Both the position numbers and the translations under genes were made by a program. DNA of 36,791 nucleotides, from assembly GCA_031257535.1 (NCBI GenBank), contig JAIROO010000316.1, positions 1 to 36,791 on the forward strand, in the 5' to 3' direction. Below the pieces are notes generated by a model. It saw only the letters and a list, made by a program, of their open reading frames with translations, was not told the DNA's origin and searched no databases. The first letter of the stretch is position 1; each line of letters begins with the position of its first letter. The stretch comes from Deltaproteobacteria bacterium (lineage in GTDB: Bacteria; Desulfobacterota; Desulfarculia; Adiutricales; Adiutricaceae). Below are positions 2,140 through 31,797 of the stretch, in pieces.

Positions 2140-2213
2140 TAAACTAAAATACGCTTAAGCCTAACGGACCTACTTGGTTTTAGCCCTATATTTTCCTATG
2201 TATTAATGATAGG

Positions 2214-2294: not shown

Positions 2295-2301
2295 TAGTTG
2301 G

Positions 2302-10408: not shown

Positions 10409-10486
10409 GTCGAGGATGACCTTAATTGTTGGCGGCGAGCCAAAAAAGAGGTTTTTAGCCTGGCTATTTTTTAGCTATGGGCTAAT

Positions 10487-13538: not shown

Positions 13539-14501
13539 TTAGCGCCAGTACTTGGAGCCTTCGTCGGTTAGATCCTTAAATAAGACCGTCGATAAGTACC
13601 TTTCCCCGGTGTCCGGCAAGATGGCGACGATGGTTTTGGCGGCGTTCTCCGGTCGTAAGGCGATCTTGGTGGCCGCGAAAGCCGCCGCTCCCGAGGAGAT
13701 GCCCACCAGTAAGCCTTCGGTCCGGGCTAAGACCCGAGCCGTGTCCACGGCCTCGTCGTTTTTGACCTTAAAAATCTCGTCGACGGTCTGAAAGTCAAAA
13801 ACCTGGGGCACAAACCCCGCCCCAATGCCTTGGATCTGGTGGGGCCCAGGGGCCCCCCCAGACAGCACGGCCGAGTCGGAGGGTTCGACGGCCACGATCT
13901 GGACCGTCTCTTTCTTCTCTTTTAAAGCCTGGCCGACCCCGGTAATGGTGCCGCCCGTGCCCACCCCGCCCACGAAGACGTCCACCGCCCCGGCCGTGTC
14001 CCGCCAGACCTCCTCGGCGGTGGTGGCCCGATGGATGGCCGGGTTAGCCGGGTTATTGAACTGCTGGAGGATGATGGAGTTGGGAATGGCCGTGGACAGC
14101 TCCTCGGCTTTGCGGATGGCCCCTTTCATGCCGTCGGCTCCGGGGGTTAAGACCAATTCCGCGCCCAAGGCTTTGAGTAAGGACCGCCGCTCAAGGCTCA
14201 TGGTCTCGGGCATGGTTAAAACTATCCGGTAGCCTTTCGCCGCGGCCACAAAGGCTAAACCAATGCCGGTGTTGCCGCTGGTGGGCTCAATAATGACCGA
14301 GCCGCTCTTTAAAAGGCCCTTTTCCTCGGCGTCCAAAATCATGGACAAAGCGATCCGGTCTTTCACGCTCCCGGCTGGATTAAAGTACTCCAGCTTAAAC
14401 AAAAGGTCGGCTTTAACCTTAGCCAGCTTCAGAAAATTCTTGGGCCTTAAAAGCGGGGTGTTGCCGATTAGATCGGTTAAACTATCAACGGCGTTACTCA
14501 C
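13539..14501 (-). CDS. cysK: Cysteine synthase (O-acetylserine sulfhydrylase)
   Basis: A fold-type II PLP enzyme of 320 residues from the GTG at 14501. [12 protein letters not shown] opens the protein; NPAGSVKDR carries PLP Lys47, TSGNTG (74-79) is the substrate loop, and GTGGT (181-185) binds the cofactor phosphate. It makes cysteine from O-acetylserine and sulfide. A longer frame to 14573 is artificial. The GTG overlaps the TGA of the NifD-like gene (GTGA), with AAGGAG 9 bases before it, so translation is coupled to the nitrogenase-like protein. This tight coupling suggests that the upstream enzyme supplies sulfide, or that cysteine feeds cluster assembly. Cystathionine beta-synthase-like or O-phosphoserine-using variants are less likely alternatives. 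Confidence 0.93.
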
Positions 14502-16072
14502 TGTACTGCGCTCCTTAAGCTTTCCTCGGGTTGAATCTCCTTGATATTGGCCAGCGGATCGCTGTCGTACCAAGCTTGTTTAAAGGGCAAGACCACGTTG
14601 GCGCCCACTTTTTTGGCGAGGTTGGTGTTTAACAAAGCCCGGGCCGCTTTTCTGGCCAGCTCAAAGGCCCCGGAGTAGCCCATATGGTTTTGGGACTGAC
14701 CGTAAAGAGGAATGGTCGGAATGCCTAAACGTACCACCCAGCCGTTAGCCCCGCCGTGCCCCACGTAGAGATCGGGTTTAAGGCGCTTTAGGTAGACGAT
14801 CTCCTCGGCGGGTTGACCAGCGGCCACGGCGACGGCGGTTTCTGGATCGTCGACGTCGTCCAGCATGGGAATGGCGAAGCGGTCAAAGTTGTGGGGTTTT
14901 AAGCCCAAGACCTTCATGCCCAAAGACTGGAAAAACTCGGCCGTGGTAAAGATCCGGGTCTCGCCGCCGCCGACCCAGATGGATTTGCCGGCTAGGGTCT
15001 TTTTAAAGGGCTCTAAGGCTTCTAAGAGCTGCGAGGTCTCCAGGGCGATGACCTTTTCCGTCTCTTCCGAAAGATTCAGGGCCGCCCCAATCGCCCGGAG
15101 CCATTGGTTGGTGTTCTTAATACCAATGGGTAAGGTGTCGATCACGAAGGGCGTGCCAAATCTCTCTCTTAAGTGGCCAATGAGATAGTCGTCGTGGGTG
15201 GCGCAGATGCTGACGTTTAAAGCCGCCTCCCCCATGCGGGCGATCTCGTCGACGTGTCCATAAAGGGGTAAAACGTTGACCTTTAAACCAATGGCGGTCA
15301 GGATCCGCGACAACTCCACCTCGTCGCCAAAGCTGGTGGAGCCGACGTTTAAAAGGTTTACGGTCCGCGAGTTTTGCCGCCGGATCCGCTCGAGCCGCTC
15401 CGCCTCGTCTTGGGCTCCAACTATGACCGACTCAATGACCTCAGGCGGGTCAACCAGTTTTTTAAGTAACCCGTGGTAAGCCGCGTCATAGCCACTAGCC
15501 ACGAACCGACTGCGGAAGCCCTCGCAGTGGACGGGCACGAGTTTGGCCGAGACCAAGGGGGTGAGGTCGTCGACTAAGGAGTCAATGTCGTCGCCAATGA
15601 TCCCCGGCACGCAGCTGTTGCCAATAACTATAACGTCAGGGCGGTACTCTTTTTCCGCGTATAAAATGGCGTTTTTAAGTTTTTCGTCCCCGCCGTTAAT
15701 GACGTCGGCCTCGTCTAGATTGGTGTGGATCCAGATGACGTCGTTGGCGGGTTTGCCCTTTAAAGCTCGGGCGGTCTTGTTGAAACCGGCGAGACCTATG
15801 TTGTTGGAGGCGCAACCCAAAGGGCCGTGGATAATGGTCACCACGTTTTGGAAGGTTCGGACGATGCCTAAGGCCAAGATCAGTTGGCAACCGATGCCTT
15901 GGGAAAAGTAGCGGCTGTTAAACTTGGCGCAACCTTGGCCCATGGCGCGTTTAAGGGACCGACAAGTGCCTAAGTAAGCGTTGGTGGGCTCAATCCGGAC
16001 GTCGCGGGTCGGGGGTTCCATGGCCGAAGTGTAGTTATAAACCAAGCCTTCGGTTAAGTCTTTTTCGGACAT
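14498..16072 (-). CDS. Nitrogenase-like component 1, NifD-like (alpha) subunit
   Basis: A 524-residue protein of the oxidoreductase/nitrogenase component 1 family. Alignment by eye to NifD places C62 (GIGCQL), C87 (IIHGPLGC) and C154 ([13 protein letters not shown]) on the three P-cluster ligands. C290 ([16 protein letters not shown]) falls on the FeMo-cofactor ligand Cys275. The His442 region reads [10 protein letters not shown], with H463 displaced by one residue, so the second cofactor ligand is uncertain. C37, C48 and C183 are extra. It lacks the full nitrogenase context: no nifH, nifB, nifE or nifN is in the window. It follows the NifK-like gene by 27 bases, with AAAGGA before its ATG, and is translationally coupled to cysK. 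It probably forms a heterotetramer that reduces a non-N2 substrate, as methylthio-alkane reductase does; the substrate here is inferred to contain sulfur. Confidence 0.88.
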
Positions 16073-16099: not shown

Positions 16100-17446
16100 T
16101 TAACGGTTACTGACTAAGACGCTGTAAATGTCCTCGGCCAAGGTCAGCCCGCCCCGGTAGCCGGTATACCCTCTGGTTAAAACCGCCCGATTGGTCACCG
16201 GATAGGATATCGGCAAGAGCATGGCCCCGGTTTTTTGGGCCACGCTGCCTTCTAAACTGCTGCCAAAGATAAACAAGGGCGACAGTTGGTTGTAATATTT
16301 TTCGTTACGGTTATAAGGCCAGCTTTCCCGGATATGGCGTAAAAGCTGGCCGGTGTTAGCCTCAAAAATCAGTTTGGTCTTCACGTTCGCGGTTAGGGTC
16401 TCAAACTTAGCCGCGTATTTAGCCGACTCCTCGGCCTCGGCGGGTTCTTCGTTAATGACCACCAGATGCGGGATCCAGCCTAAGTCCTCGGACACGAAGC
16501 GGATCAAAGGAAAGGCGTAATTAATGTCCGTCGAGACCACGGCGTAGCGTTGGTAGTCTAAGTCCCCGTGGATCTCTAAAAACCTTTGGAAGTAACTATA
16601 ATAAAAGGCTCTTTCCTCGGCGATGACCTCTTCGAGACGGTTTTTGGGGATTTTTAAGGGTTCGGCGATCTGCCTTAAAAAGGCCTCGGTGCCGGTGTCG
16701 CCAATGGGTAGATCCACCAAAATGGATGGGATGTCTAGGCGGTCCTCAAAAACCTTGGCCGTCTCGCGACCATGAATAGCCGAGAAAACCAGGTTATGGC
16801 CGGCTTGGCCGTAACCTTTGATCTTTTCCACCGTCTCCCCGTCGCCAAAAAAGGTGTTGACCTCAAGGCCCAGCTTATTTAGGAGAAAGGCGAGGTTAGC
16901 GAGATTGCCTTTGTAAAAGACGTCTTGGCCTGGGGTAAAGCCCAAAAGGTTGACCTTTTTTTTGTCTTTTTTGGTTGAGGGCGTAATAAAGTTCGTGGCC
17001 AAAGAGCTTAAGACGGCCTCGTAACCTTTAAAGCCGTCCCCCAAAAAGCCCGGGGTGCTAGCGTAAAGGACCGGGACCTCGCTATCCTTAAAACGGTTGG
17101 TCACGTTGGCCGCGTTGTCGCCGATGATCTCCACTTGGCAGCCGGTGACCACAAAAAACAGATCGCCATCCATGACTTTTAAGGTCGCCTCAATCTGCTC
17201 TTCTAAGCGCTCCTCGCCTCCAAAGACGATGTTGTTCTCGGCGATGGAGGTGGTCGGGGTCATGGTTCCGCTGCAGTAACCCGGGCCTTTGTAACCACTG
17301 CCGAGGTTGTAAGTGGCCGATAAAGTCTGAGCGCAGCCCCCAGAGGCGTGGACGATGGGGACAGAGCGGGGGAGCGAGGAGATGGTGGCGATGGCCCCGC
17401 CCAAGGCGCAGGAAGATTTCGCCCGTTCGATAAAATTGTTTTCCAC
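16100..17446 (-). CDS. Nitrogenase-like component 1, NifK-like (beta) subunit
   Basis: A 448-residue protein with the beta-type pattern. C13 (SSCALGG) and C38 (IVHASGGC) have the same 25-residue spacing as NifK Cys70 and Cys95. C102 (VTGCQVEIIGDN) matches Cys153, and NNIVFGGEERLEEQI is the typical VFGG segment. Together with the NifD-like partner, all six P-cluster ligands are present. C58 is additional. The start is GTG with AAAGGTG upstream. It lacks the long N-terminal extension of Mo-nitrogenase NifK. The order is K before D, opposite to nifHDK. A 336-base leader with repeats and overlapping hairpins separates it from the binding-protein genes, so it may start its own transcript. Confidence 0.87.
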   Translation of the reverse strand: MENNFIERAKSSCALGGAIATISSLPRSVPIVHASGGCAQTLSATYNLGSGYKGPGYCSGTMTPTTSIAENNIVFGGEERLEEQIEATLKVMDGDLFFVVTGCQVEIIGDNAANVTNRFKDSEVPVLYASTPGFLGDGFKGYEAVLSSLATNFITPSTKKDKKKVNLLGFTPGQDVFYKGNLANLAFLLNKLGLEVNTFFGDGETVEKIKGYGQAGHNLVFSAIHGRETAKVFEDRLDIPSILVDLPIGDTGTEAFLRQIAEPLKIPKNRLEEVIAEERAFYYSYFQRFLEIHGDLDYQRYAVVSTDINYAFPLIRFVSEDLGWIPHLVVINEEPAEAEESAKYAAKFETLTANVKTKLIFEANTGQLLRHIRESWPYNRNEKYYNQLSPLFIFGSSLEGSVAQKTGAMLLPISYPVTNRAVLTRGYTGYRGGLTLAEDIYSVLVSNR

Positions 17447-17782: not shown

Positions 17783-18850
17783 TTACGATTTTTGAAAATA
17801 AGGATTAAACTCGTTAGTATAGACTTTGTTTAAGTCAACGGCTTTAGATATTTCTTTGTACTCTATAAGGAGGTCCATCCAGACCTCGACGCTTTCGGCC
17901 TTGATAATGGCGTTGGGCGCGTAATAGCGTTCCGTGACCTTGTTAACGTCGACGTTGGCCCTTCTGGCCGTGATCTCGCGGTTAAGCTGGGGGTTGTCGT
18001 TGGCCCAGTTGGCGGTTTTAGCCATGGCCGCGGCGAACCCGCGAATCACGTCGGGCCGCTCTTTAATAAAATCTAAATGGAAGAAAAAGGGCGTGCCCCC
18101 GCCGCGGTTTTCCCAGATATCGTAGTCGGAAAATAAAACCCGAAACTCGCCATTATTAAGGAAATACTCGGGGGTTTTATGCATAAGGGCCACGTCAATG
18201 TCCCCTTGCCGGAGGGCCTGCTCAATTAAGGTTTCTTTGATAATGACTTGCTCTATGGCGTTTTTTTGATCTTCGACGCCATGTTTCCTTAAAAAAGCCA
18301 AAGGAAAATAACCGCTGCAGCCTGTGGCCGAGGGCGAGCCAATTTTGCGGCCGACCATGTCTTTAGCGGTTTTAATGGGGCTGTCGATTTTGACGATGGC
18401 CACCATATGGGGGACTCTTTCGGTGGATTCCGTTTTTTGGGCCACGGCCAGGATTTGGGCCCCAGCGGCGATGGCCGAGATGGTCGTGTTGACGTGGCCG
18501 CCAGAGTTGGTGTGGATAATTTTCTTTAAGACCGAAGGAATGGTCTGAGTCGAGGGGACCGCGCCTATATAATTGATTTGAATGCCATTTTCGTCGAAGA
18601 AACCGTTTTCCTCGGCGGCCATGAGGATTTCCGGCGAAGTCAGCTCGGCCGAGTTGGGGACGTTTAAGACGTAATATTTGCGACCAGCCTCAAAGACTTC
18701 CCCGGGTTTGAGATCCACCGGGGCCTCGCTCGGGGTCGAGGCTTGAATATTATTAGGTCGATTTTGGCCTTGCGAGGTTTGATTGTCGCCGCAAGCGGTA
18801 ATTAGACCGCTTAAAGCTATTAAAGTTAAGGCAAAGTTAATTATTTTCAT
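17783..18850 (-). CDS. NMT1/SsuA-type substrate-binding lipoprotein 5
   Basis: A 355-residue ABC binding protein. The signal peptide ends in a lipobox, LITAC (Cys20). The mature protein carries the NMT1/THI5-like fold, with segments TSPEILMAAEENGFFDENG, HMVAIVKIDSPIKTAKDM and the C-terminal TNEFNPYF shared with its four upstream paralogs. It is the most divergent of the five: the shared GGCHEYTPYAWL becomes TGCSGYFPLAFL, implying a different ligand. It ends 336 bases before the NifK-like gene. It should deliver substrate to the permease pair at 30999-32664. Confidence 0.88.
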   Translation of the reverse strand: MKIINFALTLIALSGLITACGDNQTSQGQNRPNNIQASTPSEAPVDLKPGEVFEAGRKYYVLNVPNSAELTSPEILMAAEENGFFDENGIQINYIGAVPSTQTIPSVLKKIIHTNSGGHVNTTISAIAAGAQILAVAQKTESTERVPHMVAIVKIDSPIKTAKDMVGRKIGSPSATGCSGYFPLAFLRKHGVEDQKNAIEQVIIKETLIEQALRQGDIDVALMHKTPEYFLNNGEFRVLFSDYDIWENRGGGTPFFFHLDFIKERPDVIRGFAAAMAKTANWANDNPQLNREITARRANVDVNKVTERYYAPNAIIKAESVEVWMDLLIEYKEISKAVDLNKVYTNEFNPYFQKS

Positions 18851-18909
18851 TATTCTACTTTATTAGATAGACTTAAAGTCTAACAATATTTTATAAAAAA
18901 TATTAATAG

Positions 18910-20040
18910 TTAATTGACTTGATAATATGGGTTAAATTCATTGGTGTAAATTTGATCTATGGTTAGGCCTGGTTTAATTTCCCCAAAAAGCTCTAATAGT
19001 TCGATCCAGACTTGGGCCGTCTCGGGTCGGATAAGGCCGTTGGGCGTAAAATACCTTTCATTAACGTAGTTAAAGTCGGTATTGGTCCGGCGGGCCGTGA
19101 TCTCGCGGGCTCCAACCGGGTTTTGGTTGGCCCAATTTAAGGTCTCGGCCGTGGCCGCGACAAAGGCTCGGACTAAGTCTGGATGTTCCTCGATGAATTT
19201 GGTGGCGAAATAAAAGGGCGTGGCTCCGCCGTCCGCTCCCCAGACGTCAAAGTCGGAAAAGACCACCCGAAACTCGCCTTGCCGGTCAATCTCCTCAGGC
19301 AGCTTGTGGGTCATGGCCAGATCGATTTCCCCTTGTCTTAAAACCTGCTGGATGTTTTTCTCTGGCAGAACCAAGACTTCAATTTTGTTTTTGGGGTTAT
19401 CTACGCCAAACTTATTGAGCCAGGCGTAAGGGGTGTACTCGTTGCAACCGCCAATGGTTGGGATGCCGACTTTTTTGCCCACTAGATCGGCCGGGGTTTT
19501 AATAAGGCTGTCTTTGGGGACTATGCCTATCATGTGCGGCACTCTTTGGCTGGTCTCGGTTTTGCCAGCCACGGCTTTAATCTTGGCTCCGGCCGAGACG
19601 CCGGCGATGGTCCGGTTAATATGGCTCCCAGGGCTCACGTCGATATGGCCCGAGACCACGGCGGCCACGTATTGGGGGGTGGGCACGACTCCGACGAAGT
19701 CCATTAAAATGCCGTGTTTTTGGTAGATTTTCAGATCGTCGCCCACCACGAAAATATCCGGCGAAGTCGGCTCAGCCGGCATGGGGACTTTAAACTTGGT
19801 GAGTTTAAGGGAGACGGCGGGACCACTCGCGACTTTGGTGGACTGACTCGCGGCGGAGTTACTGGGGGCGGTTGAGGCGGCGCTTTTCGGCCCCTTCTCT
19901 TGGCTAACCGAAGACGTAGGCGACCCTTTCGAGCTGGTGGGTTGATTGTCGCCGCAGCCAGAAAGAAACGACAAAAAGGCGGCTAAAACGACCAATAAAA
20001 GTCTAAAAACATGGTTATTATAATGGGCTAGGTAGATCAC
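18910..20040 (-). CDS. NMT1/SsuA-type substrate-binding lipoprotein 4
   Basis: A binding protein of about 376 residues. The GTG at 20040 is chosen because GGAG lies six bases upstream; a longer frame reaches 20073 from another GTG without a ribosome site. A hydrophobic leader leads to lipobox FLSGC, then a Ser/Thr/Pro/Ala-rich linker of about 50 residues before the folded domain. Conserved family segments are HMIGIVPKDSLIKTPADL, GGCNEYTPYAWL, FSDFDVWGADGGATPFYF and TNEFNPYY. The position with His in GGCHEY is Asn here. It is the fourth of five tandem paralogs, 59 bases before the fifth. Confidence 0.88.
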   Translation of the reverse strand: MIYLAHYNNHVFRLLLVVLAAFLSFLSGCGDNQPTSSKGSPTSSVSQEKGPKSAASTAPSNSAASQSTKVASGPAVSLKLTKFKVPMPAEPTSPDIFVVGDDLKIYQKHGILMDFVGVVPTPQYVAAVVSGHIDVSPGSHINRTIAGVSAGAKIKAVAGKTETSQRVPHMIGIVPKDSLIKTPADLVGKKVGIPTIGGCNEYTPYAWLNKFGVDNPKNKIEVLVLPEKNIQQVLRQGEIDLAMTHKLPEEIDRQGEFRVVFSDFDVWGADGGATPFYFATKFIEEHPDLVRAFVAATAETLNWANQNPVGAREITARRTNTDFNYVNERYFTPNGLIRPETAQVWIELLELFGEIKPGLTIDQIYTNEFNPYYQVN

Positions 20041-20110
20041 GATTGACTCCAAAACAAAAAAACGAAAAGCCACTAAGGGGACTTTTTAAGCCTATTCGCC
20101 GTTAGGCTTT

Positions 20111-21145
20111 TTAAGTGGTCGGCCGATAATTCGGGTTAAACTCGTTGGTATAAATTTGGTCCAAGGTTATGCCCGGTTTGATTTCCCCAAACTCCACTAG
20201 TAAGTCTATCCAGAGCTGAGCGGTGATGGGTTTGATGATCCCATCGGGCACGTAAAAATTGGGCGATATCCTTAAAGGATCGTAATTGGTCCGGATCGCC
20301 GTAATGTCTATGGCTTTTTGGGTATTTTCGTTAGCCCACTTTATGGTTTCGGTCATGCCTTCCACGAAGTTTTTGACGACTTTAGGGTTATCTTTAATAT
20401 ATTGAGTCGTAAAATAAGGCGGGGTGGCCCCCCCATCGGGACCCCAGACGTCGTAATCGGAAAAGACCGTGTCAAACTCGCCCACCCTTTCCATTTCCCC
20501 CGGGGTTTTGTGGAGCATGGCCAGGTCGATTTCGCCTTGACGTAAGGCTTGCTCAATGACGTTTTTGGACATGACCACGATTTCGACCTTATTTTTGGGA
20601 TCTTCTATCCCGTTATTTTTTAGCCAAGCGTAAGGGGTGTACTCGTGACAACCGCCAATTAGAGTTAAGCCAATTTTTTTGCCCACAAAGTCTTTGGCCG
20701 TCCTTAAAGGCGAGTCTTTGCGGACCACGCCTATCATGTGGGGAAAAACCTCGGTCGTCTCCGTGTGGCCCACCACGGCTTTGACTTTAGCCCCGGCCGA
20801 GATGCCGGCGATGGTGCGGTTGATGTGGGCGCCGTGGCTGACGTCCAACTGGCCAGAGACCACCGCCGCCACCAGTTGGGTCGAAGGAATATTGCCCACA
20901 AACTTTAATTCGATTCCTCGTTTTTTAAAAAAGCCCATCTCGTCGGCCACCAAAAATAGGCTGGGCGTATTGGGATCGGCCGGAAACGCGGCCTTTAAGA
21001 CCGTAACTTCTGGGGCGGGGGTCTTAGCGCTGGCCGCGGTATTGGAATCGGCTTTCGGTTTTGGGCTCTCTTGGCTCGAGCAGCTCCCTAAAACTAATAG
21101 CGATAGGACTAAACTTATAAATATTAAATAAACTTTATTGTTCAT
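20111..21145 (-). CDS. NMT1/SsuA-type substrate-binding lipoprotein 3
   Basis: About 344 residues from the ATG at 21145; a longer frame to 21193 adds 16 residues that precede the natural signal peptide. The lipobox is LVLGSC. The domain has PHMIGVVRKDSPLRTAKDF, GGCHEYTPYAWL, FSDYDVWGPDGGATPPYF and TNEFNPNY. It is close in sequence to binding proteins 1 and 2. The ribosome site is weak (AAGAAA), suggesting translation after the preceding gene in the operon. Confidence 0.87.
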   Translation of the reverse strand: MNNKVYLIFISLVLSLLVLGSCSSQESPKPKADSNTAASAKTPAPEVTVLKAAFPADPNTPSLFLVADEMGFFKKRGIELKFVGNIPSTQLVAAVVSGQLDVSHGAHINRTIAGISAGAKVKAVVGHTETTEVFPHMIGVVRKDSPLRTAKDFVGKKIGLTLIGGCHEYTPYAWLKNNGIEDPKNKVEIVVMSKNVIEQALRQGEIDLAMLHKTPGEMERVGEFDTVFSDYDVWGPDGGATPPYFTTQYIKDNPKVVKNFVEGMTETIKWANENTQKAIDITAIRTNYDPLRISPNFYVPDGIIKPITAQLWIDLLVEFGEIKPGITLDQIYTNEFNPNYRPTT

Positions 21146-21193
21146 ATTTAATTTTTTCTTACGTATACAGACTTTAAACAGTATACGCGTCAA

Positions 21194-22489
21194 TTAAAAT
21201 TGGCCGGTATAATAGGGATTAAACTCGTTAGTAAAGACTTGAGGGACGGTTATACCGGGTTTTATTTCCCCAAAGCGCGTCAAGAGTTCGATCCACAACT
21301 CCGCGGTCACGGGTTTCATGAGGCCATCGGGCGTGTAATAATTGGAAGTGATTTTACTGATATCCTGATTAGTCCTTTTGGCCGTAATAGCCCGGGCCCC
21401 GTCTAAGTTCTCGTTCATCCAGTTTAAGGTTTCGGCCACGGCCGCGACGAAGTTTCTGACCACGTCTGGGTGGTCTTTAATAAATTGAGTCCCGAAGTAA
21501 TTGGGCGTGGCTCCCCCGTCGCCTTCCCAGACGTCGTAGTCGGAGTAAATCACGTCGAACTCGCCGTTATTGGCGATTTCCGCCGGGGTCTTGTGGAGCA
21601 TGGCCATATCGATATCGCCTTGCCTTAAGGCTTGTTCCAATAAGCTCCTGGCGATGATGACGGTTTGGATTTTGTTTTTTGGATCCTTTATCCCGTGTTT
21701 TTCCAGCCAGGCGTAAGGGGTGTACTCGTGGCAGCCCCCAGGGTTGGACAAGCCTATTTTTTGGCCGATAATATCGGCCGCTTGTCTAATAGGGCTATCT
21801 TTGCGGACGACCCCCACCATATGAGGATAAATGGGGGTGGTTTCCGTGTTGCCGACCACGGCTAAGATCTTGGCCCCAGCCGAGATGCCGGCGATGGTTC
21901 GGTTGATATGCGCCCCGTGACTGACGTCCAGTTGGCCGGACATGATGGCCGCGACCAGTTGGGTCACGGGAATATTGCCGACAATGTCCAGCTTAAGGCC
22001 CCTTTTTTGAAAGAAGCCCAAGTCGTCGCCAATCAAAAAGGTGACTGGAGTCGTGGGATCCGGGGAAATCGAGGCTCTTAAAACGACTAAGCCTTCGGCG
22101 TTTCTTATAAGACCCTTTTCGCTCGACTTAGTCGCTAGAGCCGCTTTAGCCGCTGAATCGACCGCCGCCTCTTTTTTGGGCTCGGCGCTTTCGCAACCAA
22201 AAAAGAGAGCGACTAAGGTTAAAGAGACCGCGAGCCGCGATAAAGCCCGTATTTTAGTTAGCCAAACTAGCCCGCTTAGGCTAGGGGTTACAAATGTCTT
22301 TAAGGCTAATGTCGTTTTTTGATTAAGGGTTAACCATTTAATAAAGGCTAACCATTTGGCCAGGGTGAGACATTTGACAAGAGCTAGCCATTTGGTAATG
22401 GTCGCCCATAAAAGCTTTTGGTCCTTGCCCATCGCCCGCTTCCGTTCCGCTATTATCGCTTTGTTCAATTGGTCGAATATTGGCGTCAT
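21194..22489 (-). CDS. NMT1/SsuA-type substrate-binding lipoprotein 2 with a repeat-expanded leader
   Basis: A 431-residue binding protein, about 75 residues longer than its paralogs at the N-terminus. The folded domain is standard: PHMVGVVRKDSPIRQAADI, GGCHEYTPYAWL, YSDYDVWEGDGGATPNYF, TNEFNPYY. The leader contains about four to five copies of a six-residue unit (KWLALV, KCLTLA, KWLAFI, KWLTLN) encoded by an 18-bp tandem repeat, before a normal lipoprotein signal ending VALFFGC. The real start may be internal, after the repeats, but no better ribosome site was found, so the first ATG is kept. Confidence 0.8.
   Translation of the reverse strand: MTPIFDQLNKAIIAERKRAMGKDQKLLWATITKWLALVKCLTLAKWLAFIKWLTLNQKTTLALKTFVTPSLSGLVWLTKIRALSRLAVSLTLVALFFGCESAEPKKEAAVDSAAKAALATKSSEKGLIRNAEGLVVLRASISPDPTTPVTFLIGDDLGFFQKRGLKLDIVGNIPVTQLVAAIMSGQLDVSHGAHINRTIAGISAGAKILAVVGNTETTPIYPHMVGVVRKDSPIRQAADIIGQKIGLSNPGGCHEYTPYAWLEKHGIKDPKNKIQTVIIARSLLEQALRQGDIDMAMLHKTPAEIANNGEFDVIYSDYDVWEGDGGATPNYFGTQFIKDHPDVVRNFVAAVAETLNWMNENLDGARAITAKRTNQDISKITSNYYTPDGLMKPVTAELWIELLTRFGEIKPGITVPQVFTNEFNPYYTGQF
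22334..22411. repeat. 18-bp tandem repeat inside the leader of binding protein 2
   Basis: The word CCATTT (once ACATTT, last CCATAA) recurs at exactly 18-base steps: 22334, 22352, 22370, 22388 and 22406. The period is a multiple of three, giving in-frame six-residue repeats rich in Lys-Trp-Leu in the protein leader. Confidence 0.8.
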
Positions 22490-22532
22490 TTATTTTTATT
22501 CCTATTTCTTGGCCTAAAAAAAGGGCGAAGAG

Positions 22533-23606
22533 CTAAAGGCCTTCTTTATAAAATGGATTAAATTTATTGGTATAAATTTGCTCCAAGGTTATGCCAGGCT
22601 TGATTTCGCCATATTCGACTAAAAGGTCGATCCAGACTTCCGCGGTTATGGGCTGGATTAGTCCGTCCGGGGCGTAGAATCTTTGATTGATTAAATTAAC
22701 GTCGTAATTGGTCCTTCTGGCCGTAATTTCTCTGGCCCGATAGGGATTGGCGTTCGACCAATTGATGGTCTCGGCCAGAGCCGCGGTAAAATTTTTAACG
22801 ACTTGGGGATTGTTTTTAATAAATTCTAAGGAAAAATAATTGGGAGTCGCCCCGCCATCAGTCCCCCAGACGTCGTAATCGGAAAAGATCACGTCAAACT
22901 CGCCTTTGCGATTAATTTCTTCCGGCATTTTGTGGAGCATGGCTAAATCAAGATCCCCTTGCCGGACGGCTTGCTCTAAGGCGTTTCGGGATAAAATGAT
23001 CACTTGGACCTTATGTTTAGGATCCTTAATCCCGTGTTTAGAGAGCCAGGCGTAAGGGGTGTACTCGTGGCAGCCCCCATTTAGGGCGAGGCCTATTTTT
23101 TTACCAACAAAATCTTCGGGTTTTCTTAATTTACCGCCTTTTTTGACGACCCCGATCATGTGGGGAAATCTTTCGGTGGTTTCTGAGTTGGCGATGACGG
23201 CCAAAATTTTCGCCCCGGCCGAAATCCCGGCGATGGTTCGGTTAAAGTGGGCGCCGCCCACGTCTATGTAGCCAGAGACGACCGAGGCCACCAATTGGGT
23301 GGACGGGATAACCCCTGGGTACTCCAACTGAATATTGTGTTTTTTAAAAATACCCAATTCTTCCCCGACCAAAAAGTTGCTTGGGCTCGTGGGTTCTTCG
23401 GGATAAGGGACTTTTAAAACAGCGACTTCATTATGAGTTGGGCTCAAGTCGTCGGCCGCGAAAGCCGCTTTAGTCCAGTTTGTTTTTTGATTTTGGCTAA
23501 ACGACTTTAAATTTAGCCATTGGGTCGCGTAAAGGGCGGCGACTAGACCAGCTATTATTAACGTTATTCTTATGAACGCGGGCCGCGCGTTTTTTTTTAT
23601 TTCCAT
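22533..23606 (-). CDS. NMT1/SsuA-type substrate-binding protein 1
   Basis: A 357-residue binding protein, first of five tandem paralogs. Unlike the other four it has no lipobox; the hydrophobic segment TLIIAGLVAALYATQWL (about residues 15-31) acts as a signal peptide or membrane anchor, with a possible cleavage near AAFAAD. Family segments are FPHMIGVVKKGGKLRKPEDF, GGCHEYTPYAWL, FSDYDVWGTDGGATPNYF and TNKFNPFY. Fifty to a hundred bases upstream is a perfect 10-bp hairpin. It most likely delivers substrate to the SsuC-type permeases at 30999-32664, energised by the ATPase at 32698-33585. Confidence 0.87.
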   Translation of the reverse strand: MEIKKNARPAFIRITLIIAGLVAALYATQWLNLKSFSQNQKTNWTKAAFAADDLSPTHNEVAVLKVPYPEEPTSPSNFLVGEELGIFKKHNIQLEYPGVIPSTQLVASVVSGYIDVGGAHFNRTIAGISAGAKILAVIANSETTERFPHMIGVVKKGGKLRKPEDFVGKKIGLALNGGCHEYTPYAWLSKHGIKDPKHKVQVIILSRNALEQAVRQGDLDLAMLHKMPEEINRKGEFDVIFSDYDVWGTDGGATPNYFSLEFIKNNPQVVKNFTAALAETINWSNANPYRAREITARRTNYDVNLINQRFYAPDGLIQPITAEVWIDLLVEYGEIKPGITLEQIYTNKFNPFYKEGL

Positions 23607-23987: not shown

Positions 23988-24024
23988 TTAGGCGGCCAGC
24001 ATTTCCACAAAAGCCTTGATCCTG
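23881..24024. repeat. Tandem copies (about 36 bp) of the 3' end of the DCCP-C gene
   Basis: Units begin at 23881, 23918, 23953 and 23989 with TAGRCGGCCAGC followed by TTTCCAMMAAAGCCTTGACC. The fourth is the genuine end of the coding sequence (KAFVEMLAA and stop on the minus strand). The other three lie past the stop codon, with spacings of 37, 35 and 36 bases. Confidence 0.85.
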
Positions 24025-25223
24025 GTTAAGACTTGACCAGTTGGGGCCCCAGTTTGAAACGAGCCTTCCAAGTTAACGCAGGGCAACCCCTTTTCGTGGA
24101 AAAAGCGTCGCCACATCTCCCGGTCAATGGAGGCGAAAGAGCAGCCAATGTAGCCGTAGAGGATGACTCCACGGGCTTTGAGCCGGGTCACCTCGGCGTC
24201 TAAAACGTGCCGGGCGTAAACTCCAGCTCCGGCGATGGAGTTGTCGTAAACCCAGCGGGCGATGGCCTCTAAAGGCGGAATGTCTTCGCGGTAGTCCTTA
24301 AAAGGGGCGCTCCGAAGGCCTAATAAAGCCCCGCCCGCCAGATCAATGGCCTCGTAAACGCCAAACTCCTGGCCAGTGCCCCCCGCCCAGACCAAAGGAA
24401 TGGCTTTTTGGATCTCTTTTTCGTCAATAGGGGTGTTTTCGAGTTCGACGATTAGCTCGTCTATGGCCGCCTCGTAATCGTCTGGTCGGCCAAAGTAATT
24501 GTTTAAGCCCACGTTTAAGGTCAAGATAATGGCTAAGGACTTCATGTAAAAAGGATGGAGGATCCTTAGATCCAAGACCTTTTTAACTTTTCTTAAGAGG
24601 CGATTTTTGCGGGCGATCTCAAAGCTAAGCTTGGTCTCGTCGACGTCGCGACTTCCGGTCAGCCACTCGGCCACGTCCCTTAACTGCTCGACGGTAAAAT
24701 CGACTAGCTGCTCCAAACGCTCCCCTTCCACCGAGGGCCCGCGGTAAATTACCTCGTTAACGAATACGTCGTAGCCCCGAAGGCGCATGAGTTCCCAAGA
24801 CAGGTTAAAGGGCTCGCAGCTAGAGGAGCTGCCTAAGATCCGGTTGATGGTCCCGGTATTGAGCCTTTTGTGCCATTGAGCCACCGTGCATTTGAGCATG
24901 GAGCAGGTTTCCACGGGAAATTGATAGACATCCTCGGCTAAAAGCATGTCCTCTTTGGAGCTATAACGACCCATCTCGCTATAGGCCACTGGGGTCACCC
25001 CTAAGGCGTAGAGAAGAGGTGGTTGGTAGTTGCCGCCCTGGCACCAGACGGCTGGGCGCCCGGCTTTAAAAGCTCTTTCCGACCCAGGCACGTAATCTTC
25101 CGAGAGATCCAAAAGTTTTTTAATGGCCGGGGAGTAATCGTGAACCTGTTTGGAGTAGGTCACGTATTCCGATTGGCTGTTAATATCCAAGGCCTCAAGG
25201 TCCACTTTTAATGGTAAAGCCAA
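23988..25223 (-). CDS. Double-cubane-cluster-type protein C (2-hydroxyacyl-CoA dehydratase D-component family)
   Basis: A 411-residue HGD-D/BcrC/HgdB-family protein. Cysteines are C61 (AVWCQGG), C107 and C112 (VETCSMLKC), C136 (SSSSCEPFN), C361 (GYIGCSFAS) and C382 (LPCVNLEGS): exactly six. The double-cubane protein of Carboxydothermus uses six cysteines for an [Fe8S9] cluster, whereas true dehydratase subunits hold one [4Fe-4S]. It would receive electrons from an activator ATPase. The start is TTG with AGAGG nine bases upstream, at the same place as in its paralogs. Substrate is unknown; a dehydratase or reductase of a CoA ester is the alternative. Confidence 0.83.
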   Translation of the reverse strand: MALPLKVDLEALDINSQSEYVTYSKQVHDYSPAIKKLLDLSEDYVPGSERAFKAGRPAVWCQGGNYQPPLLYALGVTPVAYSEMGRYSSKEDMLLAEDVYQFPVETCSMLKCTVAQWHKRLNTGTINRILGSSSSCEPFNLSWELMRLRGYDVFVNEVIYRGPSVEGERLEQLVDFTVEQLRDVAEWLTGSRDVDETKLSFEIARKNRLLRKVKKVLDLRILHPFYMKSLAIILTLNVGLNNYFGRPDDYEAAIDELIVELENTPIDEKEIQKAIPLVWAGGTGQEFGVYEAIDLAGGALLGLRSAPFKDYREDIPPLEAIARWVYDNSIAGAGVYARHVLDAEVTRLKARGVILYGYIGCSFASIDREMWRRFFHEKGLPCVNLEGSFQTGAPTGQVLTRIKAFVEMLAA

Positions 25224-25316: not shown

Positions 25317-26567
25317 TTAATGGGTGGAGGTCAGCATCTCCACAAAGGCCTTGACCCTGGTCAACAGCTGGCCATGGGGAGCCCCCACCTGAAAAGAGCC
25401 TTCCAGGTTTAAGCAGGGCAAGCCTTTTTCGTGGAAATAGCGCCTAAACATCTCCCGGTCGACCGAGGAGTAGGAGCAGCCAATGTAGCCATATAAGATC
25501 ATGCCCCGGGCCCCTAGGCGGTTGTACTCGGACTCCAAGACCTCGCGGGTGTAGACCCCCGCCCCGGCCCTAGCGTTCCCGTAGACGTAACGGGCCATGG
25601 CCTCCAAAGGCGGCAGGTCCTCGTTCACCAGCCGAAATGGCGCGTCCCGAAAACCCAGTAAGGAGCCGCCGGCCTGGTCGATGGCCTCGTAAACGCCAAA
25701 TTCCTGGCCCGTGCCGCCGCCCCAAATAATGGGGATGACTCGCTTTAAGTCGTCGGGGTTGACTGGCTCGTTTTCCAGCTCCTCGATTAAAAGGTCGATC
25801 CCTTCTTCGTACTCTTTTGGCCGGCCAAAATAGTTGGACAGACCTACGTTTAAGAACATGATCGTGGCTAAGGATTTGACGTAAAAGGGATGGGTTACCC
25901 TTAGCTCTAAAAGCTTTTTGAGTTTTTTCATGAGGCGATTTTTCCGGCGAAACTCCTCGCGCAGAGCCTCTTCGTCGACTTTTCGCTCCCCGGTCACCCA
26001 CTCGGCGATGTCCAAAAGCTGCTCGATCATGAATTTAACCAGTTTTTCCAGCCGCTCGCCGGTCACCGTCGGCCCGCGATAAGTCGTCTCGTAAGCGAAA
26101 ACCTCGTAACCTTGCTTCCGCATGATTTCCCAGGCCAGGTTAAAAGGCTCGCAACCCGTGGAATTGGTTAAGATCCGCTTTATGGTAAAGGCCCCAATCC
26201 TTTTGTGTAACTGTCCCACCACGCATTTGACCATGGAGCAAGTTTCGACTGGGAACTGGTAGTGATCCTCGGAAACCTGCATGTCTTCCCGGTCGCTATA
26301 GCGGCCCATCTCGGTGTAGCCAATGGGGGTGTAACCAAGGGCGTAGACAAACAAAGGCTCCCAATTGTAGGTGTTGCAAAAAAGAGCCGGTTTCCCCTCT
26401 TCGACGTAGGCCCTTTCGATTTTGGGCACGTAATAGTCGAGGAGATCTAATAGTTTAAGGCAAGCCGGCGAATAACTATGGGTCGTTTTGGAGTACAGAA
26501 TATAATCGTGCTGCGTGACGATACTATCTGGATTGTCGACCAACTCTTCGGCCAGGTTAAGGCTCAT
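25317..26567 (-). CDS. Double-cubane-cluster-type protein B (HGD-D family)
   Basis: About 416 residues from the second ATG at 26567, which has GGAG nine bases upstream; an ATG at 26582 has none. It is the most divergent of the three paralogs but keeps the same six cysteines (C64, C110, C115, C139, C364, C385 from this start) in ALFCNTYN, VETCSMVKC, STGCEPFN, GYIGCSYSS and LPCLNLEGS. One extra cysteine lies near residue 36. GTGQEFGVYEAIDQAGG is shared by all three. It lies between the stand-alone activator gene and DCCP-C. It may form a homodimer like known double-cubane proteins, or pair with A or C. Confidence 0.82.
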   Translation of the reverse strand: MSLNLAEELVDNPDSIVTQHDYILYSKTTHSYSPACLKLLDLLDYYVPKIERAYVEEGKPALFCNTYNWEPLFVYALGYTPIGYTEMGRYSDREDMQVSEDHYQFPVETCSMVKCVVGQLHKRIGAFTIKRILTNSTGCEPFNLAWEIMRKQGYEVFAYETTYRGPTVTGERLEKLVKFMIEQLLDIAEWVTGERKVDEEALREEFRRKNRLMKKLKKLLELRVTHPFYVKSLATIMFLNVGLSNYFGRPKEYEEGIDLLIEELENEPVNPDDLKRVIPIIWGGGTGQEFGVYEAIDQAGGSLLGFRDAPFRLVNEDLPPLEAMARYVYGNARAGAGVYTREVLESEYNRLGARGMILYGYIGCSYSSVDREMFRRYFHEKGLPCLNLEGSFQVGAPHGQLLTRVKAFVEMLTSTH

Positions 26568-26582
26568 AATCGCGTTCTCCAT

Positions 26583-26706: not shown

Positions 26707-27579
26707 TTAGATGTTAATGGCCATGTCTAATTTCGAGGAGGTCAAGGTCTGCTGAGCTAAGATGGCCCCCCCTAAAGCCCCGGTGTAGATGGCGTCGAAT
26801 TTAACGTCAATAAACTTTTGGCCTAAGACCTGTTCCACCGCTTTTTTCATGCCCACGTTATGAGCCACGCCCCCGCTAAACATGATTTCCGGGACTAAAC
26901 CAATGCGGTTAAAGAGGTTTTTGACGCGTCGGGCGTTGGCTAAGTGGATGCCGGCGGCGATATTGGCCGGGGACTCGCTTTTGGCCGACAAGGAAATGAC
27001 CTCGGACTCGGCGAAAACCACGCATTGGCTACTAATGTCCGCGGGCTCGGTGGCTTGTAAGGAGACCAGGCCCAAGTCCTCGGTGGTTAAACCTAAGAGT
27101 TCGGCCACTTTTTCCAAAAAGCGACCCGTGCCGGCCGCGCACTTGTCGTTCATGATGAAGTCGATGACGTGGCCATTTTTCGGATCCACCCGGATGGCTT
27201 TGGCGTCTTGGCCACCAATGTCGACGATGGACTGGATGTCGGAGTTTAAGTAGTAGGCCCCCATGGCGTGGCAGGTGATCTCGGTGATGATTTTTTTTCG
27301 GGTGTCTTTCAGATCGAAGGCCACCCGGCCGTACCCCGTGCCAATGGCGAAGTCGATTTGATCCAAAAAGACCCCGGAATCGGCGGCCAAAAGAGCCAAG
27401 AGTTTTTCCACGGTTTGCTGAGTAAAAACCGCGGTCGGGGTAATGACCGAGTACAGGCGGCCGTCTTTGATTAAGACGGCTTTGCCGGTCCGGGAGCCGA
27501 TGTCAAAGCCAACTACCACGTCGTCGGTGAGCTCGTTGATTCGCCTAGGGTCTAAAACCTCCTTGGCTAAAACGCTCAT
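26707..27579 (-). CDS. Activator ATPase (BadF/BadG/BcrA/HgdC type), probable reductase of the double-cubane proteins
   Basis: A 290-residue ASKHA-fold ATPase. Phosphate-1 motif VGFDIGSRTGKAVLI is at 23-37 and phosphate-2 DIGGQDAK at 120-127; FSGGVAHNVGM near 234 is the adenosine motif. The [4Fe-4S] ligand cysteines are C147 (NDKCAAGTGRF) and C186 (SSQCVVFAESE), one per subunit pair in the homodimer. Such activators couple ATP hydrolysis to one-electron transfer at very low potential. GGAG precedes the ATG. It lies between the genes for DCCP-A and DCCP-B, and is therefore their likely electron donor. Confidence 0.9.
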   Translation of the reverse strand: MSVLAKEVLDPRRINELTDDVVVGFDIGSRTGKAVLIKDGRLYSVITPTAVFTQQTVEKLLALLAADSGVFLDQIDFAIGTGYGRVAFDLKDTRKKIITEITCHAMGAYYLNSDIQSIVDIGGQDAKAIRVDPKNGHVIDFIMNDKCAAGTGRFLEKVAELLGLTTEDLGLVSLQATEPADISSQCVVFAESEVISLSAKSESPANIAAGIHLANARRVKNLFNRIGLVPEIMFSGGVAHNVGMKKAVEQVLGQKFIDVKFDAIYTGALGGAILAQQTLTSSKLDMAINI

Positions 27580-27669: not shown

Positions 27670-28905
27670 TTAGGCGGCTAACATCTCCACAAAAGCCTTG
27701 ACTCGGGTTAAAACCTGGCCCGTGGGCGAGCCAGTTTGAAACGAGCCTTCCAAATTTATGCAGGGGAGACCCTTTTCGTGGAAAAAGCGCCGCCACATCT
27801 CCCGGTCGACCGAGGCGAAGGAGCAGCCAATGTAGCCGTAGAGGATGACCCCTTTGGCTTTGAGCTTTTCGACCTCAAAGTTCAGAACTTCTCGGGCGTA
27901 AACCCCAGCCCCGGCGTTGGAGTTGTCGTAAACCCAGCGGGCGATGGCTTCTAAGGGCGGTAGATCCTCGCGGTAAAATCGGAAAGGCACGCTCCGAAGG
28001 CCGAGTAAGGCTCCGCCGGCCAGATCAATGGCCTCGTAAACCCCAAACTCTTGACCCGTGCCGCCAGCCCAGACCAAAGGAATGACGGTCTTTAAGTCCT
28101 TTTCGTTAACCGGGGCTTTTTCCAGTTCGGCGATCAATTCGTCAATGGCCGCCTCATACTTGGTTGGTTGGCCAAAGTAATTGTTTAAGCCAACGTTTAA
28201 GGTTAAGATAATGGCCAAAGACTTCATGTAAAAAGGATGAGTAAGCCGAAGGTCCAAGATTTTCCGCAGTTTCCCCAACAAGCGGTTTTTGCGGGCGATT
28301 TCTATTTTTAGCTTTTCCGGATCGACTTCTCGCCGCCCTGTCAGCCACTCGGCCACGTCCAGCATCTGCTCCATGGTGAATTTGACCAGCTGGTCTAAAC
28401 GCTCCCCCGTCACCGTCGGGCCCCGATAGATGACTTCATTGGTAAAGACGTCGTAGCCATGCTTTCGCATGACTTCCCAAGATAAGTTAAAGGGCTCGCA
28501 ACTGGAGCAATTGCCCAAGATGCGGTTGATGGTCCCCGAGTTTAGCCTTTTGTGCCACTGGGCGACCGTGCACTTGACCATGGAGCAGGTTTCCACTGGA
28601 AATTGGTAAACGTCCTCGGCGATCAGCATGTCCTCTTTGGCGCTATAGCGACCCATCTCGCCATAGGAGACCGGGGTGACTCCCAAGGAGTACAGTAAAA
28701 CCGGTTGATAGTTGTTGGCGTTGCACCAGACCGCGGGTCGGCCTTCTTTAAAAGCTTTCTCCGCCCCGGGCACGTAATTGTTGGCTAAATCCAAAAGCTG
28801 GTTGATAGCCGGGGAATAAGAGTGGACTTTTTTGGAGTAGTCTATGTACTCCTTTTGGGTATTGATATCCTCCGGCTCAATAGGTTGGGCTAAAGCTAAG
28901 GTCAC
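27670..28905 (-). CDS. Double-cubane-cluster-type protein A (HGD-D family)
   Basis: A 411-residue close paralog of protein C. The six shared cysteines are C61, C107, C112, C136, C361 and C382; a seventh, C133 (GNCSSCEP), is Ser in B and C. Motifs FPVETCSMVKC, GTGQEFGVYEAIDLAGG and ILYGYIGCSFAS place it in the HGD-D family. The start is GTG with GAGG eight bases upstream. It is preceded at 30 bases by the fused activator and followed by the stand-alone activator. If the double-cubane assignment is right it carries out ATP-dependent two-electron reductions of small molecules, or passes electrons to the NifKD-like pair; the latter is an inference. Confidence 0.83.
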   Translation of the reverse strand: MTLALAQPIEPEDINTQKEYIDYSKKVHSYSPAINQLLDLANNYVPGAEKAFKEGRPAVWCNANNYQPVLLYSLGVTPVSYGEMGRYSAKEDMLIAEDVYQFPVETCSMVKCTVAQWHKRLNSGTINRILGNCSSCEPFNLSWEVMRKHGYDVFTNEVIYRGPTVTGERLDQLVKFTMEQMLDVAEWLTGRREVDPEKLKIEIARKNRLLGKLRKILDLRLTHPFYMKSLAIILTLNVGLNNYFGQPTKYEAAIDELIAELEKAPVNEKDLKTVIPLVWAGGTGQEFGVYEAIDLAGGALLGLRSVPFRFYREDLPPLEAIARWVYDNSNAGAGVYAREVLNFEVEKLKAKGVILYGYIGCSFASVDREMWRRFFHEKGLPCINLEGSFQTGSPTGQVLTRVKAFVEMLAA

Positions 28906-28935: not shown

Positions 28936-30963
28936 TTAAGCGGTCTTCCGGGATCTGTCGCGCTCGTTTAAGACCTCAATAAAGGCTTCTAAACGAGTTT
29001 TGAGCTGACCTTGATCGCTTCTGGAGTAATCTAAGGCCACTTCCAGGACGGGAATGTCTAAGGCCTGGAAATGTTGGAAAAACTCGTGCTTGACTTGACC
29101 GTAGCAGGGGCAGAATTTTAAGTAGACGTACAAGATGCCGTCCACCCGAAAATCTTGGGCCAACTGACCAGATATCTTGATTCTTTCTTCCAAGGGCTTC
29201 ATCCGGGTGCAGGGGGACTGGTCCAGATAGCCATGGGCTAAGGCGGTATAAGGGTCAATGGTCTCGTCCAACTGAAAGCTAACGTTCCGGGCCCCGGTGC
29301 AGTGATCCTCGATGACCACCCTGGCCCCTAAGTTGTCTTCCACGATCTCGAGTAATCGTCGGTCGCCGTCGGCCACGATGCCGCCAGCCATCATGAGGCG
29401 TAAAGGCGGCTTTTGGTCAAAAGAGGCTACGTTGGATAGGCGATGGTAAAGATCGTCGTAGAGCGGCAGAAGACGTTCCGGCGGCAAATAGAAAAAGGCT
29501 TGGACCGCGTCCAGAAAATCGTGGCCCTTTAAAGGCGGATAGTCTTTACGCCTTAAGTCAGAGATTTTCTTTAAGGATTTGCGGACGAGGTTATAAAGCT
29601 TTATTTTGTCGGCCACTTCTTCCTCGCTGATGGGGCGGCCGGTTAGCTTTTCCAGATCTTCTTTAAAGTTGACGATCTCGGTCCGGTAGTAGTTCCGCGA
29701 GGACTCCTTGTGCCGGATGCGGGGCAGGTTATAGATTTCCGAAGGGCCAAAAAAGTCGCCAATGGCCTCGCCCACCTTTTTAATGCAGTCGCAGGTGTAA
29801 AAGGTGTAGATCTTCTCTAAGGATTTGTTTAAGGGGACGCCTTCCTTAAAAGCCCCGAGGATACTTTTGGTGAAATCGCAGAAAACCGACTGGGTGATCT
29901 GCTCGCCGCTGGCCACTATTTCGGTGGAGCCCATTTTAAACAAACGAACGTAATTGACCCCGGCCGCGCTCATGAGCTCTAAGGGGGTGTAAGAGCAGAT
30001 GTAGCCCACGCTATGGCGGCCAGTCGCGCCTAAGACGATACTGTCTTGGTGGCGGTTGACCTCGGTGGTTATCTCGCTTAAGTTAACGTTGCCTTGGTCG
30101 GCGCTCCGCGCGACTTTGACCACGCTGTCGGCCTGGAATTGACGGGCGTGGATGGCCGCCCCCAAAGCTCCGGCGTAGACCGCGTCCAGTTTGAATTTGG
30201 AGACCGGGTAACCAACTAAGTCCTCAATGGCTTTGGCCATGCCCACGTTATTGGCCACTCCCCCGGAAAAAGCTAAGTTGGGCTCGATCCCGACCCTTGA
30301 CAGAAGGTTTTTAACCCTTCTGGCCGTGGCTAGGTGGATGCCAGCGGCGATGTCGGGCGGGGTGGCTCCTTTGGCCCTTAAGGAGACGACTTCGGACTCG
30401 GCGAAGACCACGCACTGGCTGCTGATCTCGGCGGGGACTTGGGTTTGTAAGGCGATGGGCCCGAGTTCGTTTAAGTCAAGATCTAGAAGCTGAGCCACTT
30501 TTTCCAAAAATCGCCCGGTCCCGGCCGCGCACTTGTCGTTCATGACAAAGCTAACCACCCGGCCCGATTCGGGATCGACTTTGATGCTTTTTGAGTCTTG
30601 ACCGCCAATGTCGATGATGGTCCGGACCTCGGGATCCAGATAATGAACGCCTAAGGCGTGGCAAGATATCTCCGTGACAATTTGGTGGCCCACGTCTGGA
30701 AAAGACATGGCTACCCGGCCGTAACCCGTGCCGACGATATATCTTAGGTCTTCGTATTTAAGGCCGCTTACGGCTAAGAGCTCGGCTAAAAGAGAGTCAG
30801 CCGTTTTTTGCATGTTTATGTCCGTGGGCGCCTGGAGAGTATAAATCTCGCCGTCTTTTAAAATAACGGCTTTAGCCTGACGGGAACCCACGTCTACCCC
30901 AGCCACGGCCGGGCCCGTTAAGCGTTCGGCGAGTTTTGGGTCAATGACCTCGCTAATTTTCAT
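28936..30963 (-). CDS. Fused activator ATPase and 2-hydroxyacyl-CoA-dehydratase-like (HGD-D) protein
   Basis: A 675-residue fusion. The ATG at 30963 follows GGAG; a TTG-initiated frame to 30990 has no support. Residues 1 to about 285 form an activator with VGSRQAKAV, DIGGQDSK, NDKCAAGTGRF, SSQCVVFAESE and FSGGVANNVG, including both cluster cysteines. After a short linker, the C-terminal half resembles the D-component fold: HSVGYICSYTPLELM, FCDFTKS, YTCDCIKK, EDHCTGARN, SPCTRMK and YLKFCPCYG, eight cysteines in all. Similar activase-dehydratase fusions are known in anaerobes, mostly uncharacterised. It may be a self-contained electron carrier feeding the DCCPs, since donor and acceptor are on one chain. 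Confidence 0.87.
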   Translation of the reverse strand: MKISEVIDPKLAERLTGPAVAGVDVGSRQAKAVILKDGEIYTLQAPTDINMQKTADSLLAELLAVSGLKYEDLRYIVGTGYGRVAMSFPDVGHQIVTEISCHALGVHYLDPEVRTIIDIGGQDSKSIKVDPESGRVVSFVMNDKCAAGTGRFLEKVAQLLDLDLNELGPIALQTQVPAEISSQCVVFAESEVVSLRAKGATPPDIAAGIHLATARRVKNLLSRVGIEPNLAFSGGVANNVGMAKAIEDLVGYPVSKFKLDAVYAGALGAAIHARQFQADSVVKVARSADQGNVNLSEITTEVNRHQDSIVLGATGRHSVGYICSYTPLELMSAAGVNYVRLFKMGSTEIVASGEQITQSVFCDFTKSILGAFKEGVPLNKSLEKIYTFYTCDCIKKVGEAIGDFFGPSEIYNLPRIRHKESSRNYYRTEIVNFKEDLEKLTGRPISEEEVADKIKLYNLVRKSLKKISDLRRKDYPPLKGHDFLDAVQAFFYLPPERLLPLYDDLYHRLSNVASFDQKPPLRLMMAGGIVADGDRRLLEIVEDNLGARVVIEDHCTGARNVSFQLDETIDPYTALAHGYLDQSPCTRMKPLEERIKISGQLAQDFRVDGILYVYLKFCPCYGQVKHEFFQHFQALDIPVLEVALDYSRSDQGQLKTRLEAFIEVLNERDRSRKTA

Positions 30964-30998
30964 AAAAAAAGTCTCCACAAATATAACCAAAATGGTAA

Positions 30999-31784: not shown

Positions 31785-31797
31785 TTTTTGGCGCCTA

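Follow-up and report, generated by a model that had tools for sequence, protein, structure and literature searches.

Among the closest described systems are the alkanesulfonate-binding proteins TauA and SsuA. TauA holds the sulfonate with Gln30, Gly61, Gly79, and Thr132 and the amine with Glu106, Thr132, and Asp205, while Trp176 packs on 2-(N-morpholino)ethanesulfonic acid (MES) (PMC6906117). Nitrogenase-like enzymes also act on organosulfur compounds; Mar is described as cleaving C-S bonds (PMC12552129) and Isr as acting on isethionate together with SsuCAB (PMC11423573). SaoX, from the Sec (selenocysteine)-assisted organometallic system, is described as carrying a UxP selenocysteine motif (PMC13188914). 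Here, we describe a 36,791-nucleotide stretch of DNA from an uncultured deltaproteobacterium (assembly GCA_031257535.1, contig JAIROO010000316.1, positions 1 to 36,791; "the window"), in which five tandem genes for periplasmic NMT1/SsuA-like binding proteins stand between genes for an ATP-binding cassette (ABC) importer and a nitrogenase-like NifDK pair. The ligand pocket of these proteins appears to be a soft Cys/His site and not a canonical sulfonate site. Related loci, genomes, and contigs are designated by L, G, and C numbers.

Results

Five tandem paralogs

The genes for the five binding proteins all lie on the minus strand, at positions 22533 to 23606 (protein 1), 21194 to 22489 (protein 2), 20111 to 21193 (protein 3), 18910 to 20073 (protein 4), and 17783 to 18850 (protein 5). 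All five products exceeded the curated cutoff of the Pfam NMT1/THI5-like family (PF09084), at 55 to 75 bits versus 20.5, with E values of 1e-14 to 8e-21. Identity to protein 1 was 53% for protein 2, 58% for protein 3, 52% for protein 4, and 45% for protein 5, a resemblance far beyond chance. A preliminary description, made from the DNA alone, had proposed five tandem paralogs with shared motifs, and this was borne out. The motif PHM(I/V)(G/A)(V/I)V was found in all five proteins, and TN(E/K)FNP forms a common terminal segment. The central motif GGC(H/N)EYTPYAWL is present in proteins 1 to 4 and is replaced by TGCSGYFPLAFL in protein 5, whose pocket has diverged. The Cys within it (C179 of protein 1, C178 of protein 5) is invariant across the array.

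Lipoboxes were recognized in protein 3 (LGSC), protein 4 (LSGC), and protein 5 (ITAC). Protein 2 has a lipobox-like FFGC at residues 96 to 99, and its true start is probably downstream of the listed one. Protein 1 was correctly described as having lost its lipobox, with no Cys ahead of residue 179; since its ortholog (L001:9869-10933) retains LWGC, the loss is specific to protein 1.

A predicted Cys/His ligand site

Confident AlphaFold2 models were obtained for protein 1 (predicted local distance difference test score, 90.6) and protein 5 (92.3). The top Foldseek match was TauA (E value, 7e-18), and VIA Z scores, which served fold assignment only, were 22.6 to 26.4 against TauA, SsuA, and Thi5 structures. 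The nearest solved structures were TauA, thiamin-precursor binding proteins, and SsuA. In the predicted fold, C179 of protein 1 and C178 of protein 5 stand at the start of a helix that begins one residue before the Cys. Alignment to Escherichia coli TauA and SsuA in two MAFFT modes placed C179 at TauA Thr132, H225 at Trp176, and H120 at Gly79; the placement of H149 was unsure, a few residues from Glu106, and a profile alignment to PDB chains shifted C179 by one residue, onto Thr133. The TauA/SsuA sulfonate site (Gln30, Gly79, Thr/Ser132, and Trp176) is not retained, the corresponding residues in all five array proteins being Pro or Leu, His, Cys, and His. The GGC cysteine had been proposed to line the pocket, and the modeled fold and the two TauA alignments support this by homology, with no sign of a surface location for the motif.

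C179 was present in 68 of the 77 relatives aligned. Among these 68, H149 was found in all, H225 in 67, and H120 in 62, with Met or Gln replacing H120 in the other 6; none of the 9 relatives without C179 has H149, H225, or H120. Among the 25 rows less than 36% identical to protein 1, nine lack C179, and the remaining 16 all have C179, H149, and H225. Besides this alignment of 77 rows, one of 64 rows was used, from which fragments of <250 residues and L036, L037, and L051 were left out. A coevolution of C179 and H225 was considered (Fisher P of 6e-11), but this value ignores descent, and the claim was dropped in favor of conservation. Because the rows without C179 form just two clades, the pattern reflects conservation within a family and not many independent events. 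A disulfide at C179 is unlikely, since it is the sole core-domain Cys in 54 of the 68 rows. We read the conserved set of C179, H149, H225, and H120 as a ligand or metal site. The cysteine had been called unusual; this is so relative to TauA (Thr) and SsuA (Ser) but not within the family, where it is common and always accompanied by H149. As one of four conserved Cys/His residues, it rests on firmer ground than the preliminary description could have shown.

Pocket similarity among the five proteins

The pocket-lining windows (49 positions) of proteins 1 to 3 were 80 to 86% identical to each other, compared with 57 to 62% at the 242 other positions. Over the same windows, protein 4 was 67 to 69% identical to proteins 1 to 3, and protein 5 was 49 to 55% identical to the others, with its own pattern largely retained in the orthologs compared. 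Because pockets 1 to 3 are nearly alike, that of protein 4 slightly different, and that of protein 5 the most different, two or three ligand classes are suggested rather than five, and this would be the simplest reading expected from the sequences. Either a set of related ligands or a ladder of affinities had been proposed for the array; either may hold, the pocket identities fitting two or three classes.

Retention and spread of the family

Each of the five proteins grouped with its own ortholog in the sister genome G005 (66 to 76% identity; tree support, 100/97 to 100/99), with the ortholog of protein 2 sitting on a different contig from the others. The duplications therefore predate the species split, and the array appears to consist of old paralogs that were separately retained. 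Trees were built from 76 rows (quick method) and 52 rows. Tandem expansions were also observed separately elsewhere, with four genes of one clade in L062 and two genes each in L015, L019, and L074; L013 has four SBP5-type genes in a row.

The binding-protein family is rare and patchy. Matches were found in all 7 genomes of the genus (two to nine each, fragments counted), in 2 of 53 other relatives searched, in 3 of 395 sampled genomes of the phylum (all within the genus), and in 4 of 398 genomes of the phylum of Sporomusa; the searches of 395 and 398 genomes scored few candidates per genome, and the absences hold at that sensitivity. Several of the relatives are metagenome-assembled genomes that presumably come from termite guts.

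Other copies were seen outside the array. On contig C103 of the genome that holds the window (L054, positions 1615 to 4010), a solitary HGD-D gene precedes the gene for another close binding protein, the sixth, which shares the Cys/His set. On contig C112 (L053, positions 3463 to 9178), a second NifDK-like pair is accompanied by a separate permease and ATPase and by a binding protein in which the Cys and His residues are missing. Sporomusa sp. strain KB1 (L074, L075, and L010) has a large island in which binding proteins and permeases alternate with NifDK-like genes or pairs, of which there are at least five. In L059, broken copies of an HGD-D gene and a binding protein (1537 to 2791 and 9851 to 10827) lie next to intact ones, as if arrays gain and lose members.

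Gene context

All genes of the cluster are on the minus strand. Upstream of the array, in order of transcription, are an ABC transporter ATPase (32698 to 33585; Pfam ABC_tran, 113.6 bits), permease 2 (31798 to 32664; assigned by synteny in L001, L003, and L056) and permease 1 (30999 to 31808; BPD_transp_1), a fusion of a BcrAD/BadFG activase with an HGD-D domain (28936 to 30990; double-cubane-like, under the cutoff of that family), HGD-D subunit c (27670 to 28905; Pfam HGD-D), an acyl coenzyme A (acyl-CoA) dehydratase activase-like ATPase (26707 to 27579; TIGR00241, 221.7 bits), and HGD-D subunits b (25317 to 26582) and a (23988 to 25223), both assigned by domain scan and Cys alignment. Cys107, Cys136, and Cys361 of HGD-D (subunit c numbering) were retained in 26 of 27 rows, the remaining row being a 19-residue piece. 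Downstream follow open reading frames (ORFs) for a NifK-like subunit (16100 to 17446), a NifD-like subunit (14498 to 16072), and cysteine synthase CysK (13539 to 14573; TIGR01139, 451.6 bits versus a cutoff of 350.95), the listed CysK ORF overlapping the NifD-like one. This gene order recurs in sister genomes, for example, in L055 with L056 and in L063.

The NifD- and NifK-like proteins keep three P-cluster Cys each, and the NifD-like protein also keeps the equivalent of Cys275 but has Tyr at the position of His442, as assigned by alignment to the NifDK of the same genome. Among the aligned rows, every one of the 16 for D and all but 1 of the 21 for K keep their Cys, the exception being truncated by a contig end. 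NifH is absent from the window, and a NifH-like gene above the nifH cutoff lies on another contig of the same genome (L070).

The preliminary description had the five proteins serving one permease pair and the same enzyme set. The former is likely but unproven: there are two permease pairs in the window, of which the upstream one (30999 to 32664) adjoins the sole ATPase gene seen and the other (9638 to 11509) has no ATPase gene. The latter is plausible, but some relatives adjoin HGD-D alone (L054) or NifHDK alone (L062). Near the second permease pair are a TonB-dependent copper receptor (5300 to 7351; 723 bits versus a family cutoff of 472.45) and a binding protein that contains a His-rich insertion (7933 to 9234). 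A scan of the window for riboswitches or other RNA control gave tRNA only, and there was no excess of promoters (16 versus 15.9 in shuffled sequence) or terminators (29 versus 32.5).

The NifDK-like genes have CysK as a neighbor in the window as well as in L001, L002, L003, L008, L010, L013, L014, and L021. Among distant relatives, an O-acetylhomoserine sulfhydrylase domain above the cutoff was found in L027, SfnB in L025, and an NtaA/DmoA monooxygenase in L024 (both above their cutoffs); an apparent further O-acetylhomoserine sulfhydrylase in L079 was judged by eye alone. Gene context in several lineages thus points to sulfur acquisition. In L027, a single ORF (3611 to 5770) beside importer genes fuses an Fe-S domain protein to the sulfhydrylase domain.

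Discussion

From the conserved residues and the neighboring genes, we infer a ligand class, a reaction, and a division of labor. In the proposed route, periplasmic NMT1/TauA-like proteins, their ligand site rebuilt from a sulfonate site to Cys/His (C179, H149, H225, and H120), would collect sulfur compounds and deliver them to one Ssu-type ABC importer. In the cell, the NifDK-like pair, fed by the NifH-like protein whose gene lies outside the window, would strip sulfur reductively; the activase-driven HGD-D proteins may likewise be co-encoded low-potential reductases that remove sulfur, and CysK would fix the released sulfide. Proteins 1 to 3 would probably serve one ligand class, protein 4 a close one, and protein 5 another. 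The Cys/His pocket probably catches sulfur compounds; the complete chain, from old Cys/His-site paralogs through one importer and reductive desulfurization to CysK, is given an even chance.

Several observations weigh against this chain. All five array proteins have Pro or Leu for TauA Gln30 and Thr for Asp205, which makes a plain sulfonate an unlikely ligand. CoA thioesters or aromatic compounds are the substrates of known HGD-D relatives, NifH lies outside the window, and the second NifDK-like pair of the same genome (L053) is not accompanied by CysK. No sulfur gene was found among the neighbors looked at in L028, L054, and L064. The neighborhood of L054 has HGD-D only, that of L028 has corrinoid/molybdopterin genes, and in L064 (12094 to 15460), a glycyl radical enzyme and a radical S-adenosylmethionine activase-like ORF (judged by eye) are neighbors of importer genes and of a binding protein with the Cys/His set. 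An isethionate lyase was considered for this glycyl radical protein and rejected, as isethionate sulfite-lyase ranked low among its PDB matches; no substrate is claimed. Lastly, a metal could also be accommodated by three His and one Cys.

That last point gives a serious rival, in which C179, H120, H149, and H225 form a three-His, one-Cys metal site and the imported cargo is a metal or organometal that the metalloenzymes of the cluster require or that is toxic in their vicinity. It would account for four invariant or nearly invariant soft or nitrogen ligands, for the lack of any invariant Lys or Arg in the 30 most conserved columns, and for the presence of Cys at exactly the H225 column in SaoX, another soft-ligand NMT1 family. 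The copper receptor and His-rich binding protein downstream in the window also fit. However, the receptor was above its cutoff in just 4 of 16 carrier genomes, so that copper import was rejected as a constant partner, and it is missing from G005 and G006, which are nearly complete and have the same cluster. H120 is not fixed, being Met or Gln in the six rows noted above, and the recurrent neighbors of the family include sulfur-fixing enzymes but, as far as seen, no enzyme that handles metals. Metal import as such is considered doubtful, and organosulfur capture is the best-supported reading. The two can be combined: in a new class of ABC binding protein, organosulfur compounds would be captured through a metal ion that three His and one Cys bind where the sulfonate site used to be, and such arrays would have undergone repeated expansion to supply desulfurizing enzymes of the nitrogenase-like and benzoyl-CoA-reductase-like kinds, a speculation that we consider rather improbable as a whole.

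Other rivals concern the reason for five proteins. If they formed an affinity or dosage ladder, sharing one ligand and differing in affinity, expression, or anchoring, the close similarity of pockets 1 to 3 (80 to 86%, versus 57 to 62% elsewhere) and the missing lipid anchor of protein 1 alone would be explained; the separate retention of every paralog in the sister species and the many differing pocket positions of protein 5, kept in the orthologs compared, make such a ladder unlikely. Alternatively, each binding protein might be matched to its own HGD-D subunit, capture and reduction expanding together. The numbers of HGD-D and binding proteins correlate (Spearman 0.69, P of 0.0016, in 18 genomes; 0.79, P of 0.035, in the seven genus genomes), although these counts include fragments and the genomes are incomplete and related. 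Lone pairs of HGD-D and a binding protein occur in L054 and L022, but the arrays of L062 and L019 have no HGD-D and the numbers in the window are unequal (three HGD-D plus the fusion for five binding proteins). We consider matched pairs quite unlikely.

Nitrogenase-like enzymes with hard-to-guess substrates occur in several anaerobic lineages. Their associated binding proteins are small and lend themselves to screening, so that the family would offer a direct route to those substrates. Should the Cys/His site hold a metal, it would also represent a new mode of sulfur-compound capture by a transporter. No paper on such binding-protein arrays with nitrogenase-like genes was found in a limited literature search.

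Importers served by five binding proteins are already known, whereas a family with a Cys/His pocket and a link to nitrogenase-like enzymes seems to be a new variation. Borrelia (OppA1 to OppA5) and Pseudomonas aeruginosa (DppA1 to DppA5) likewise have five paralogous binding proteins with overlapping but distinct ligands; unlike the present array, they bind peptides and have no tie to a nitrogenase-like enzyme. The TauA/SsuA proteins (PF09084/TIGR01728) are alike in fold and importer type, and SsuA_fam was the best NCBIfam match of all five array proteins, but each missed the TIGR01728 cutoff (65 to 75 bits versus 163.5), and TauA Gln30, Gly79, Thr132, Trp176, and Asp205 are changed to Pro/Leu, His, Cys, His, and Thr. 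SaoX (NF040735) is likewise an NMT1-type protein with soft ligand-site residues, one of them in the H225 column. There, however, it has Cys-Cys where the array proteins have His (Cys in 7 of 8 SaoX proteins aligned; the ORF chosen from L087 was not SaoX), and it is without C179, H120, and H149; four of the array proteins scored 28 to 41 bits (maximum, 40.9) against its model cutoff of 300, and the fifth gave no match. Similarly, the double-cubane-cluster reductase cutoff (NF040772, 350 bits) was missed by the activase/HGD-D fusion protein (226 bits) and by HGD-D subunit a (41 bits).

The enzymes most resemble the nitrogenase-like organosulfur systems IsrBHDK of Rhodobacter capsulatus, which also works with an Ssu-type importer (SsuCAB), and MarBHDK of Rhodospirillum rubrum. 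Unlike those loci, the window lacks NifH and NifB, and its five binding proteins are accompanied by CysK and additional HGD-D/activase reductases. IsrD retains only one of three P-cluster Cys (PMC11423573), whereas the NifD-like protein of the window retains all three. MarD has His429 on a loop specific to it, and the column of NifD His442 holds Tyr in the window protein. The Cys set of MarDK (six P-cluster Cys and MarD Cys270; PMC12552129) is matched by the NifDK-like pair, as aligned to the NifDK of the same genome.

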